DNA from: an uncultured Mucilaginibacter sp.
Lineage (GTDB): Bacteria; Bacteroidota; Bacteroidia; Sphingobacteriales; Sphingobacteriaceae
Length of the DNA: 33,984 nt
Assembly (NCBI GenBank): GCA_903915155.1
Contig: CAIWRU010000194.1
Span: 1-33,984 of the forward strand
Direction: 5' to 3'
The position numbers and the translations under genes are program-made. Each line of letters begins with the position of its first letter. The first letter of the stretch is position 1. Positions 26,710 to 29,551 of the stretch are shown one piece after another. The notes beneath the pieces were generated by a model. It was given only the letters and a program-made list of their open reading frames with translations. It did no database searches and was not told the DNA's origin.

Positions 26710-26742
26710 CACCGATTGTTTGAAAAAATGATCGGTGTTTTT
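26710..26742 (+). terminator. Terminator after the Nfu-type gene
   Basis: CACCGAT (26710-26716) and ATCGGTG (26731-26737) form a 7-bp stem followed by TTTTTATTT. A second CACCGATT at 26687-26694 could pair with the same 3' arm to form an alternative, longer-looped hairpin. Confidence 0.8.
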
Positions 26743-26766
26743 ATTTGCATATAATTTTGATTTTGC

Positions 26767-26774
26767 TAACTTTG
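26767..26774 (+). promoter_or_regulatory. -7 element of the DUF763 gene
   Basis: TAacTTTG ends 5 nt before the ATG at 26780. It is embedded in GCTAACTTTGTTAGC (26766-26779), whose arms GCTAAC and GTTAGC overlap the box and could be an operator. The leader would be almost absent. Confidence 0.45.
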
Positions 26775-26779
26775 TTAGC

Positions 26780-27322
26780 ATGAAGCGTTCGGGAAGTGCT
26801 GACCTGCCTTTGCATTATGGCTATGTACCTGTTTGGCTTGCCGAACGAATGGCGAAGCTGGGCTTGGCTATTGTGGAGAATATTTTGATTGATTATGGCA
26901 AAGACGACCTGCTGCGCCGCCTAAGCGACCCGTTTTGGTTCCAGAGCCTCGGTGCGGTGATGGGGATGGATTGGCATTCATCGGGTATTACTACCTCAGT
27001 TATGGGGGCATTAAAACGGGCGGTTAATCCGCATAGCAAAGAACTGGGAATTTATATCTGCGGTGGGAAAGGTAAATATTCCAAACAAACGCCCGATGAA
27101 CTGATAAAAATAAGCGAACGCACCGGTCTTGATGGCGACCACCTGGTAAAATGCAGTAAACTAAGCGCTAAGGTTGATAATACCGCCATACAAGATGGCT
27201 TCCAGCTATATACCCATAATTTTATTTTGAGCGATACCGGTAAATGGGCAGTTATACAACAAGGCATGAGCGACAAAAGCCGTATGTATCCTTATCCTTT
27301 TTTATCTGCGGATTATACTTAG
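26780..27322 (+). pseudogene. DUF763 protein, C-terminally truncated
   Basis: The first about 165 residues are an excellent DUF763 match: MKRSGSADLPLHYGYVPVWL, RRLSDPFWFQSLGAVMGMDWHSSG, YICGGKGKYSKQTP, AKVDNTAIQDGFQLY and WAVIQQGM. Full-length DUF763 proteins continue past this point with an ARRYHW-type motif and have well over 300 residues. Here the similarity stops after SDKSRM (about nt 27288) and an unrelated 11-residue tail follows to the stop. The ORF overlaps the 3' end of the convergent CLC gene by 71 bp. The best reading is a deletion removing the C-terminal half. The start at 26780 is standard for the family; the frame is open to 26735 but the -7 element sits between. Confidence 0.8.
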
Positions 27323-28727
27323 ATACTTTTTGGTAGAAATACCCCCGCCGCTTATTGGCATCGGATAACGAGTGTTCGCCGGCAAAATATCCGCCTAATA
27401 TCTTAGGCACCGCAATGCGCTGGGCGCTGTAGATGCCTGAATTTCCACTGAAAAAATATGCCGTAAAACACGCTATCGCAAATAGCAGCGCGTGTTCGCC
27501 GCCAAAAAGTTCGATGCCCATAAATGTGCAGGCCAGTGGGGTATTAGTGGCGCCGGCAAACACAGCTATAAAGCCTAAAGCAGCAAACAGGCTCACAGGT
27601 GCGTTAAGTACCCCAGATAAGGTATTTCCCAATGTTGCTCCAATATAAAATAAGGGGGTTACTTCTCCCCCTTTAAATCCTGTACCTAAAGTAAGCGTAG
27701 TGTAAATAGTTTTCCAAAGCCAGCTCCAGGTATCGGCCCCGCCCGCATTAAATGCAGAGGGAATGGTGACGGCCCCGGGATATTGCGCATCAACCCCTAA
27801 ACTTAAATAATCGGGCTTGCCGATGAGGAAAGTTAGGCCAATTATGATCAATCCACCAAAAACAGGTATCAGCCATTTTATAATGAATATTTTGTTGAAT
27901 ACGGCCTTGATCTCATGCACCATGATGGCGAACAGGTAACTGGTCAAACCAAAAGCGGCGGAAGCAACGATAACCTTAACTATTAAAAGTAGATCAATGG
28001 GTAAATAACCGGATAAAAAATATGGAGCCGGTGCAGTTACAGCAATGTGATAAGCGGTATGGTGAACGTGCCATGCAGCAACGGTTATATCGCCAATAAA
28101 GCTAGCGATGAGCGCGGGCAACAAAGCATCGTATTTAATGCGGCCTATGGTTAGTACTTCTATAGCGAATATGGCCCCGGTTAGTGGCGTTCCGAATACG
28201 GCACCAAAGCCAGCGGCAATGCCAGCGGTAAGCAGCATACGTGTATCATCAACATTTAATTTAAACCATTTGCTAAATAAGGCGGCTATGCTGCCCCCTA
28301 TTTGTACGGCTGTGCCCTCTCGCCCGGCGGAGCCGCCGAATAAATGTGTAATGACTGTGGTTATGAGTATTATTGGGCCCATGCGCGCAGGTACACCCGC
28401 GCCGGGCTCATGGATCTCGTCCATGATAAGGTTATTGCCTTTTTCGGCCGACTTGCCTGCCCATTTATAAATAAAATAGATAAGCACCCCGGCAAGCGGC
28501 AACAGGTACAGCAACCAGGTGTGCGTAAATCTGAAATGAATAGCGGTAGTAAGCAGCCATAAAAACAAGGCAACCATGCTGCCTATGGCAATTGCAACGG
28601 GTGCCACCAATACAGTCCACCGAATAAGATATTTAACTATGCCGTAGTGTTCCGCGGAGAAAAGCTGTTTTTTCAATTGACCAGGATACTGTGATAATTT
28701 TATTAAGATACTGTTGAATATTTTCAC
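27252..28727 (-). CDS. CLC-family antiporter, probably fluoride/proton (CLC-F type)
   Basis: A 491-residue polytopic CLC protein starting at GTG 28725-28727. The gating-glutamate motif reads HLFGGSAGREGTAVQIG (E137), with GREGT instead of the GREGP common in chloride-type CLCs. GFGAVFGTPLTGAIFAIEV and GTGFKGGEVTPLFYIGATLG are also present. The canonical GSGIP serine motif is not conserved. These features, and above all a fluoride riboswitch in the leader, indicate a CLC-F fluoride/proton antiporter that expels fluoride from the cytoplasm. The last about 10 residues (YGFCRSCLVV) are antisense to conserved DUF763 codons, so the native C-terminus was probably altered when the two genes were joined. 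CLC membership is certain; ion choice is strong inference. Confidence 0.88.
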   Translation of the reverse strand: MKIFNSILIKLSQYPGQLKKQLFSAEHYGIVKYLIRWTVLVAPVAIAIGSMVALFLWLLTTAIHFRFTHTWLLYLLPLAGVLIYFIYKWAGKSAEKGNNLIMDEIHEPGAGVPARMGPIILITTVITHLFGGSAGREGTAVQIGGSIAALFSKWFKLNVDDTRMLLTAGIAAGFGAVFGTPLTGAIFAIEVLTIGRIKYDALLPALIASFIGDITVAAWHVHHTAYHIAVTAPAPYFLSGYLPIDLLLIVKVIVASAAFGLTSYLFAIMVHEIKAVFNKIFIIKWLIPVFGGLIIIGLTFLIGKPDYLSLGVDAQYPGAVTIPSAFNAGGADTWSWLWKTIYTTLTLGTGFKGGEVTPLFYIGATLGNTLSGVLNAPVSLFAALGFIAVFAGATNTPLACTFMGIELFGGEHALLFAIACFTAYFFSGNSGIYSAQRIAVPKILGGYFAGEHSLSDANKRRGYFYQKVSKYNPQIKKDKDTYGFCRSCLVV

Positions 28728-28743
28728 CTGGAATACTATTATA

Positions 28744-28764
28744 CCCTAAAGCTTGGCTTTAAGG
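28744..28764 (-). promoter_or_regulatory. Hairpin between the riboswitch aptamer and the CLC start (expression platform candidate)
   Basis: A 9-bp stem with one G-T wobble and a 3-nt loop lies 7 nt after the aptamer and 16 nt before the GTG. It has no T-run downstream, so control of translation or RNA stability is more likely than simple termination. The mechanism is inference. Confidence 0.4.
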
Positions 28765-28770
28765 TGATTT

Positions 28771-28822
28771 GCAGGCGTCATCAGCAAATGCGGTTTTTAA
28801 AAGGAAGACACCATTTCCTGCT
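28771..28822 (-). promoter_or_regulatory. Fluoride riboswitch (crcB RNA) upstream of the CLC gene
   Basis: Read on the minus strand, this segment has the conserved skeleton of the fluoride aptamer: GGAAATGGTGTCTTCC, then ACCGC, then GCTGATGACGCCTGC. P2 pairs GGAA (28815-28818) with TTCC (28803-28806). P1 pairs GGTGTC (28807-28812) with GACGCC (28774-28779), with one wobble. The CTGATG stretch is nearly invariant in the family. It lies about 45 nt upstream of a CLC-type transporter gene, the expected target. P3 is short here. Identified from memory of the consensus, not by covariance search. Confidence 0.82.
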
Positions 28823-28823
28823 G

Positions 28824-28852
28824 CTAATATACAAATAAATACATTTAACAAA
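28824..28852 (-). promoter_or_regulatory. Candidate promoter of the riboswitch-CLC transcript
   Basis: On the minus strand TATATTAG (28824-28831, one mismatch to TAnnTTTG) lies 17 nt after TTTG (28849-28852). Transcription would begin almost exactly at the 5' end of the aptamer. Confidence 0.45.
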
Positions 28853-28853
28853 A

Positions 28854-28884
28854 AATGCCCTTCGGCAAAACGCTAAAGGGCATT
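28854..28884 (-). terminator. Terminator of the peroxiredoxin-like gene
   Basis: A perfect 9-bp stem (28876-28884 with 28854-28862, 13-nt loop) is followed on the minus strand by a T-run (28850-28855). It separates the upstream gene from the riboswitch-CLC unit. Confidence 0.8.
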
Positions 28885-28909
28885 AACACTATAAATCAAA
28901 ACTAAAAAA

Positions 28910-29551
28910 TTAAGCTGATCGTTTACGGTTGTTAGCTAAAGCCGCTATGTAAACGTTCGAAATGATCTCTTTCGCGGGAAAGGCCGCTTCGAAACTGAGA
29001 TCGACATGATCGAAAACGATTTGGCGGTAGGAATCAAGCACGTAGGTTGCCAACAAAGGCGCATTTTCGTCGATTCCTGAAAACCTTCCCCAGGCCGGGC
29101 TATCTTCATCATACACTCTGAACTGCCGCGCTATCGCATTATCATTGTCATAATAAAAGTTCAACGACAAGTTATGTTCCCAGGCTTTTGCCTGCAGGCC
29201 GTCTTCTCGTTCGGGCGTAATTATCAATAGATTTCCACCGCTTGCTTTAATTTCGTGGTGGATAGCATTCAAGTTTTTTAACTGTTTCAGCCCGAAGTCT
29301 TTCCAATGATGCGAGTAAAAGCTTATAACCAGTGGTTTTTCTAACAGATGGCGCAACAGTACCGGCCCGTGGGTTTCGGAACCATTGTAAAATTGCTGCC
29401 AGTTTGCATAGGCCTTGTTTAGCGAAAGATCAGGTATAAGGTTTCCGGTTTTTACAGGGAACAATGGATTGTATGATTTAAACTCCAGGTCGTTGTCGGC
29501 GATGATTTCTGTTATATCAAAAAATGGGTATTTATTTATGGCTGTTAACAT
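28910..29551 (-). CDS. Cysteine-less peroxiredoxin/thioredoxin-fold protein
   Basis: A 213-residue protein with an AhpC/TSA-like thioredoxin fold: a GNLIPDLSLN start to the fold (about 36-45), the strand KPLVISFYSHHW (72-83), the helix GLKQLKNLNAIHHEIKASGG, the strand NLLIITPE, then FYYDNDNAIARQFRVY. Where peroxiredoxins have the Pxx(x)TxxC active site, this protein reads SHHWKDFG, and it has no cysteine at all. It therefore cannot be a classical peroxidase; a binding or structural role, or an unrecognised activity, is possible. It has its own terminator and a 408-nt non-coding stretch upstream. Confidence 0.7.
   Translation of the reverse strand: MLTAINKYPFFDITEIIADNDLEFKSYNPLFPVKTGNLIPDLSLNKAYANWQQFYNGSETHGPVLLRHLLEKPLVISFYSHHWKDFGLKQLKNLNAIHHEIKASGGNLLIITPEREDGLQAKAWEHNLSLNFYYDNDNAIARQFRVYDEDSPAWGRFSGIDENAPLLATYVLDSYRQIVFDHVDLSFEAAFPAKEIISNVYIAALANNRKRSA

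Follow-up and report, generated by a model that had tools for sequence, protein, structure and literature searches.

The window, that is, the whole stretch of DNA analysed here, comprises 33,984 nucleotides from an uncultured Mucilaginibacter sp. (contig CAIWRU010000194.1). It contains a fluoride riboswitch aptamer flanked by an AhpC/TSA-family gene (28910-29551, minus strand) and a CLC transporter gene (27252-28727, minus strand). The closest named locus is that of Mucilaginibacter sp. X5P1, which is 85% identical. The features of the region are as follows, each with the evidence on which it was placed.

28832-28839, minus strand: TTTATTTG, a weak candidate for a -7 box that departs from TAnnTTTG at one position; sequence.
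28765-28827, minus strand: fluoride riboswitch aptamer (RF01734); cmscan, 48.9 bits against a gathering threshold of 34, full model.
28802-28819, minus strand: P1 stem-loop, AGGAA 28819-28815 with UUCCU 28806-28802, loop AUGGUGUC 28814-28807; sequence and Rfam alignment.
28807-28812, minus strand: loop strand GGUGUC, complement of GACGCC 28779-28774; sequence.
28784-28791, minus strand: shortened second hairpin, GC-AUUU-GC; Rfam alignment.
28772-28777, minus strand: putative shared strand CGCCUG, of which CGCC can pair with the P1 loop or the whole with the start-codon strand; fold and conservation.
28743-28765, minus strand: inner hairpin ACCUUAAAGC / GCUUUAGGGU of the predicted sequestering stem, with no T-run after it; fold and terminator scan.
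28725-28730, minus strand: putative sequestering strand CAGGUG, including the GUG start at 28727-28725; fold and R-Y covariation in 55 class-A leaders.
27252-28727, minus strand: predicted fluoride/proton antiporter of the CLC-F type, 491 residues read from a GTG start; Pfam PF00654, PDB 6d0j, tree and motifs.

The whole window was searched against Rfam 15, and RF01734 was the single match at the gathering threshold (E 8.5e-11, model positions 1-64 of 64). No second RF01734 match was found elsewhere in the genome when the genome was searched. A preliminary description of this DNA had claimed a crcB (fluoride) aptamer in the minus-strand leader of the CLC gene, with the P1/P2 pairing and the core GCTGATGACGCCTGC. 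The full-length match above threshold on that strand bears this out; P1 is readable and the core was located at 28785-28771. As read from the sequence and the Rfam alignment, P1 has 5 pairs and the pseudoknot has 6, one of them G-U. In the ligand-bound state the GGUGUC strand of the loop is the pseudoknot partner, the pseudoknot being a feature of the RF01734 family. The second hairpin (28791-28790 with 28785-28784) has 2 pairs, compared with 4 in the Rfam model.

The pairing of a fluoride riboswitch with a CLC-F gene is in itself known and ordinary. PMC7266159 treats fluoride riboswitches preceding CLC-F (eriC) genes as established, and the window resembles that class in both its full-length crcB motif and its position before such a gene. 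It differs from the crcB motif model in its two-pair second hairpin and in a platform that appears to include the GUG start codon.

The CLC protein was compared with solved structures using phmmer. The best match was 6d0j, a CLC-F antiporter (E 4.4e-55, residues 44-440), while E. coli ClcA scored 6.4e-7. The genome has two CLC genes. A tree of 15 rows, consisting of the window protein, 11 chosen relatives, the 6d0j segment, E. coli ClcA and the other CLC of the genome, grouped the window CLC with 6d0j and the relatives at a support of 100/99 and left ClcA and the second CLC outside; three of the rows, these two and 6d0j, sit on long branches. The motifs GREGT and GNNL, without GSGIP, occur in the window protein, where the latter reads GNNLI, and in 11/11 chosen relatives. 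The same motif script found GREGP and GSGIP in E. coli ClcA, which served as a control. We take GREGT and the lack of GSGIP to be markers of CLC-F. From the 6d0j alignment Glu-ex, Glu-in and the conserved Tyr map to E137, E355 and Y433, the last of which presumably has a functional role in CLC-F. The two glutamates, which the window protein shares with the CLC-F structures 6d0j/6d0k/6d0n, correspond to E118 and E318 in the numbering of the solved protein given by PMC12035849.

It is barely conceivable that the gene encodes a chloride-type CLC that merely lies behind a fluoride switch. Such a protein might account for the NCBIfam result, in which only chloride-type models matched, far under their cut-offs, and for the motifs of the solved CLC-F, which has GREGV and GMNL where the window has GREGT and GNNL. 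Against this, the phmmer scores, the tree and the missing GSGIP all favor CLC-F, and the chloride-type assignment was rejected. The window CLC also differs from 6d0j in carrying extra N-terminal residues when read from the GTG. We infer that it is a CLC-F type fluoride/proton antiporter, with fluoride transport as its predicted activity. The preliminary description had noted GREGT in place of GREGP and the lack of GSGIP, and had argued that RNA and protein point independently to fluoride; the above-threshold aptamer and the placement of the protein away from the chloride type agree with that argument.

The region between the aptamer core and the start of the CLC gene was then folded. Nucleotides 28778-28716 fold into a single stem that encloses an inner hairpin; CGCCUG (28777-28772) pairs with CAGGUG (28730-28725) and 28765-28756 pairs with 28752-28743. 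The predicted energy is -17.1 kcal/mol (z -3.62), and 0/200 shuffles were equally stable. The sequence GGUG is present twice, once in the P1 loop (28812-28809) and once at the start codon (28728-28725). CGCC also lies in the pseudoknot-closing strand, so that pseudoknot and sequestering stem are mutually exclusive; the start codon is accordingly expected to be hidden in the absence of fluoride and accessible in its presence. When the aptamer strand was withheld from folding, the predicted probability that the window GUG is unpaired rose from 0.011 to 0.34. Mimicry of the GGUG in the aptamer loop, by the strand that contains the start codon, probably explains why that codon is GUG. The complementarity supports an explanation of the GTG start as belonging to a strand in competition for the pseudoknot strand of the aptamer. 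The preliminary description had noticed neither the complementarity nor the leader ORFs of relatives described below.

Related leaders were collected to learn how widely this stem is kept. RF01734 matches occurred in 182/301 sampled genomes of the family, and 175 exceeded the cut-off. In all, 230 loci were drawn from RF01734 matches, from a search by pattern, from homology to the CLC and from some own-genome searches; several of them are the same place twice. These were filtered for CGCCTRC-type aptamers using the P1 loop ATGGNGT plus the core GATGRCGCCTRC. The filter passed 164/230 loci, which reduce to 100 distinct leaders, 88/100 of them not picked by the sequestering pattern. The 66 loci removed were 33/91 of those chosen by RF01734, 19/80 of those from CLC homology and 14 others (own-genome loci without an aptamer and pattern-search loci). 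The window shares the 17-nt short form of the second hairpin with other leaders (24/100 distinct leaders, the window included). An exact TAnnTTTG, which we take to be the -7 box motif, lies no more than 35 nt 5' of P1 in 49/100 distinct leaders, compared with 2.4 expected from letter shuffles; the exact motif is absent from the window's own leader.

Among the 88 distinct CGCCTRC-type leaders not picked by the pattern, 81/88 have a stem of 6 contiguous pairs or longer, with three or more G-C pairs, between the pseudoknot strand and a downstream strand. In 20 trials with dinucleotide-shuffled downstream DNA, 7.0 leaders on average and 13 at most had such a stem. Three of the 7/88 leaders that miss the 6-pair rule (L080, L081 and L150) carry TTGTAGATG with a mismatch. 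Among the 33 RF01734 loci dropped by the filter, 15/33 have a stem of at least 6 pairs with two or more G-C among them, where letter shuffles gave a mean of 3.4 and a maximum of 7. In two of these 15, L044 and L075, its position is not clearly at the start. The 18/33 dropped loci in which the stem is absent are 15 loci with a CTCCTAC core, probably Pedobacter, together with L087, L090 and L093. Seven of the 33 have the core and were missed by the filter all the same (L038, L039, L040, L043, L044, L045 and L048); in L038, the only one of the seven inspected, the loop was responsible. In L088 a TAATG lies inside the core. With the stem in 15/33 dropped loci and not in 18/33, the platform is common and not universal, and the claim of conservation is limited to the CGCCTRC-type aptamers that pass the filter.

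The leaders fall into two classes. Class A, to which the window belongs, comprises 55 distinct leaders whose 3' strand has GGTG at its end; the class definition itself fixes most of the stem. At the free position the combinations were A-T in 22, G-C in 21, G-T in 10 and A-C in 2, that is, 53/55 paired; shuffles gave a mean of 44.9 and a maximum of 50. The window is the sole case among the 55 with a C-C mismatch at the seventh stem position, which makes its stem shorter than usual. In class B (44 distinct, with CLC) a stem of at least 5 pairs ends 0-17 nt 5' of the ATG in 41/44, a count that stands without a shuffle control; the gap is 1 nt in 22, 0 nt in 7 and 2-17 nt in the remainder. The accessibility of the GUG was predicted for class A with two models of the bound state. 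Withholding the aptamer altogether raised the mean unpaired probability from 0.010 to 0.599, with an increase in 55/55, while the freed GUG still stayed below 0.5 unpaired in 21/55. A cruder model blocked the pseudoknot bases only, which left the GUG able to pair with other aptamer bases; its effect was weaker (mean 0.031 to 0.213, higher in 47/55).

The stem might act on transcription rather than on translation. It would then be an intrinsic terminator or promote Rho-dependent termination, with fluoride as the anti-terminator, and we consider this improbable. Fluoride acts as an anti-terminator at the Bacillus cereus crcB gene. Transcriptional fluoride riboswitches couple a pseudoknotted aptamer to a downstream terminator, as described in PMC11077080. 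Several relatives have T-runs inside the stem, and in those a role in transcription termination may exist. The preliminary description had placed a hairpin without a T-run at 28744-28764, and this was recovered as the inner hairpin at 28765-28743. A simple consensus scan of 28600-29000 listed 0 terminator-like sites, although the same scan likewise missed what is probably the terminator of the gene upstream. In class A the 3' strand ends at the GTG and A-rich sequence follows in the leaders seen, and in class B the stem stops just short of the ATG in nearly every leader. A terminator needs no fixed position relative to a start codon, so the fixed position of the stem counts against one. An intrinsic terminator was rejected on the result of the scan. 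Control of translation is the reading that we prefer. It had also been suggested in the preliminary description, for a gene that starts with GTG and has no clear ribosome binding site, and is supported by the start-codon stem, its conservation and its covariation.

Within ~2.5 kb of a CLC there are 97 distinct leaders. These were sorted into 18 whose GTG frame runs on into the CLC (the window and 17 others), 27 in which the GTG lies no more than 500 nt 5' of a distinct CLC frame, 8 in which one or more other genes intervene, and 44 of class B.

The assignment of the start codon itself can be questioned. If the CLC starts further in, for example at TTG 28674, the GGTG strand would merely sequester; this is unlikely in our judgment. 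In the 27 relatives with a separate frame the GTG is 97-364 nt 5' of the CLC ATG and cannot be the CLC start, which means that the sequestering strand can exist apart from it. On the other hand the GTG frame does run into the CLC in the 18 leaders just mentioned, and there is no in-frame ATG near the beginning of the CLC in nine leaders besides the window (L065, L084, L111, L118, L119, L120, L127, L128 and L129). Close relatives keep CAGGTGAAAA in register in 6/7 aligned cases, supporting the GTG start at 28727; the seventh is L149, whose aligned segment was truncated, from a genome whose own leader L119 ends in TTTTGCAGGTG. The same GTG is the immediate start of a different gene in two leaders, L103 and L085, the one in L085 encoding a PAP2-family protein. 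A start further inside the CLC was rejected on the register kept by relatives and the missing ATG in the nine leaders.

In the 27 relatives with a separate frame, the GTG opens a leader ORF of 34 to 93 codons. The end of this ORF falls -29 to +13 nt from the CLC ATG in 26/27; in the exception, L134, it comes 85 nt early. Stop/start overlaps at the CLC ATG are frequent (ATGA, TAATG and ATGACTGA), arrangements typical of coupling. L098, L102, L123 and L126 are leader-ORF cases. Of the 19 among the 27 that were not picked by the pattern, 18/19 fit the arrangement in which the ORF ends near the ATG. In class B, L080 has an ATG-started leader ORF that ends in an ATGA overlap. Similar ORFs precede other genes. 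The GTG frame is 16 codons long in L050, L054 and L056, where an overlapping ATG frame (GTGAATG) of 35 codons ends 20 nt before an enolase gene; in L055, which is one base shorter, the GTG frame itself reaches the vicinity of the enolase gene. The fit is looser in L193 and L161, where the ORF ends 111 nt and 16 nt, respectively, 5' of the next gene. The window has no separate uORF, its GTG ORF being the CLC itself.

There is a small chance, somewhat above that of the two previous alternatives, that the leader ORFs are chance open frames and that the CLC starts independently at its own ATG. The leader peptides are not conserved beyond close kin, and leader lengths differ by non-multiples of three. 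Chance is not rare for single short leaders, as shuffled leaders match the real one with a probability of 0.0015-0.32 each over the 26 fitting leaders. The leaders are also related to one another: they cluster into 4 groups at 60% identity, into 9 at 65% and into 14 at 70%, and hence are far from 27 independent cases. The early end in L134 and the +16 to +111 nt before other genes are likewise what chance frames would allow. What speaks for translated ORFs is the narrow range in which 26/27 of them end, many at stop/start overlaps; of the alternative frames in these 27 leaders, two per leader, 5/54 remain open up to 15 nt or less from the ATG. A stem covering a distant GTG would moreover be pointless if that GTG were untranslated. 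A conserved leader peptide was considered and rejected; beyond close kin the leaders share an open frame and where it ends, but neither sequence nor length. Translational coupling of the leader ORF to the exporter is probable in these relatives, judging from their sequences.

The model that we favor is a fluoride-activated riboswitch acting on translation of the CLC-F fluoride exporter, which we hold to be very probable. Without fluoride, CGCCUG (28777-28772) would pair with CAGGUG (28730-28725), the GUG would be held in the stem with its inner hairpin, and translation would be off. With fluoride, the pseudoknot would be stabilised and would capture CGCC, and the stem could not form. Ribosomes would then initiate at the opened GUG independently of a Shine-Dalgarno sequence, as may be expected in Bacteroidota. 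In relatives with a leader ORF, ribosomes finishing that ORF would be delivered to the exporter's ATG by coupling. The window lineage would represent a simpler form in which the ORF is continuous with the exporter. In this scheme we infer the binding of fluoride, the direction of the switch, the effect on translation and the transport of fluoride. The broader picture for Mucilaginibacter and its relatives is likely, if less secure than the switch itself: the start codon would mimic the aptamer loop, and in many of these bacteria a leader ORF with an unconserved peptide would serve only to ferry ribosomes to the exporter start, having been kept open as its sequence and length drifted, while in the window lineage it is continuous with the exporter. 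Bacteroidetes mRNAs lack classical Shine-Dalgarno sequences according to PMC7366714, and covering the start codon would be a natural way of switching for such mRNAs.

Several known systems invite comparison. The Pseudomonas syringae fluoride riboswitch exerts its control through the 3' strand of the aptamer, the same logic as proposed for the window, and the translational fluoride switches of P. syringae and Burkholderia pseudomallei have Shine-Dalgarno sequences. Both are proteobacterial, unlike the window, and serve as translational controls in PMC13273304, in whose main text "bacteroid" has 0 occurrences. The leader ORFs of the relatives resemble the uORF of Mycobacterium tuberculosis ppe2, which is controlled by a B12 riboswitch and has a stop that overlaps the next start, with termination-reinitiation as the main route (PMC11260477). 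The case there is experimental and ours is drawn from sequence. The ppe2 system is a B12 OFF-switch whose uORF has a Shine-Dalgarno motif, whereas the relatives would have a fluoride ON-switch, and the window differs further in its fused form with no separate uORF. Bacteroides TPP riboswitches have another aptamer; that they 'regulate transcription or translation', and hence that translation control occurs in Bacteroidota, is claimed by a title cited in PMC7366714. The translational TPP riboswitch of E. coli tbpA also has a GUG start codon (PMC11487190), but there the ligand turns translation off and a Shine-Dalgarno sequence is present, unlike in the window.

In the open-licence literature, with subscription literature mostly outside the search, we found no riboswitch work on Mucilaginibacter, no fluoride riboswitch with PAP2 and no paper joining a fluoride riboswitch to the Shine-Dalgarno sequence in Pseudomonas syringae. 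The platform is not treated in the titles and opening abstract lines of papers on fluoride riboswitches and Bacteroidetes, and the available part of PMC8814607 has nothing on it.

What goes beyond the known pairing, as far as sequence comparison can tell, is a start codon that appears to imitate the aptamer loop, together with leader ORFs in relatives that appear to be coupled to the exporter. An odd-looking GTG start gains a reason. Enolase is a classic target of fluoride, and in relatives enolase and phosphatase-like genes sit behind the same kind of switch. For control through a coupled ORF, 26 natural leaders are at hand for testing (4 to 14 groups among the 27, depending on the identity cut). 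The result is a concrete, testable model in which a riboswitch would control translation without a Shine-Dalgarno sequence by covering the start codon itself.

The CLC gene that follows the fluoride aptamer is flanked by the following features.

28910-29551, minus strand: AhpC/TSA-family gene, upstream of the aptamer
28882-28850, minus strand: TGCCCTT/AAGGGCA hairpin followed by TTTTTT, read from the sequence
26735-27319, plus strand: DUF763 gene, Pfam profile match

An AhpC/TSA-family gene adjoins CLC in 7/80 named CLC loci. These seven loci belong to close relatives, apparently in genomes with the fused GTG form, where the GTG frame is continuous with CLC. The hairpin and T-run between the AhpC/TSA-family gene and the aptamer look like a terminator for the upstream gene. 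The hairpin was not reported by the terminator scan, perhaps owing to its long loop. Since a terminator here would close the upstream gene, transcription of the fluoride aptamer probably starts from a separate promoter.

The DUF763 and CLC genes lie tail-to-tail with overlapping ends. DUF763 is single copy in this genome, and the Pfam match covers profile positions 1–165 of 319 only. DUF763 matches were obtained in 44/61 searched genomes of the genus, 40 of the 44 being full length. Because a DUF763 match was sought and was absent from the flanks of the 80 named CLC loci, the second half of the gene was probably lost here through rearrangement.

Among relatives, a G+C-rich sequestering stem, in which the aptamer pseudoknot strand pairs with the strand holding the start codon, was found in 0/15 leaders with a CTCCTAC aptamer core (L004-L007, L009, L010, L012, L017, L022, L023, L026, L030, L031, L033 and L073). 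By eye, these have just a weak A+T-rich hairpin ahead of the ATG.

In eight distinct leaders, an enolase-like gene separates the fluoride aptamer from CLC: L055 (743-2017), assigned by Pfam, and L050, L054, L056, L071, L079, L161 and L193, assigned by eye. PAP2-like or calcineurin-like phosphoesterase genes follow the aptamer in L085 (PAP2) and L161 (phosphoesterase), both Pfam-checked, and in L103 and L081, assigned by eye. In L071, probably from a Pedobacter, the sequestered GTG starts a 182-aa ORF encoding a membrane-like protein. This protein had no Pfam match at 0.001; it resembles PAP2 by eye and is possibly a truncated copy.
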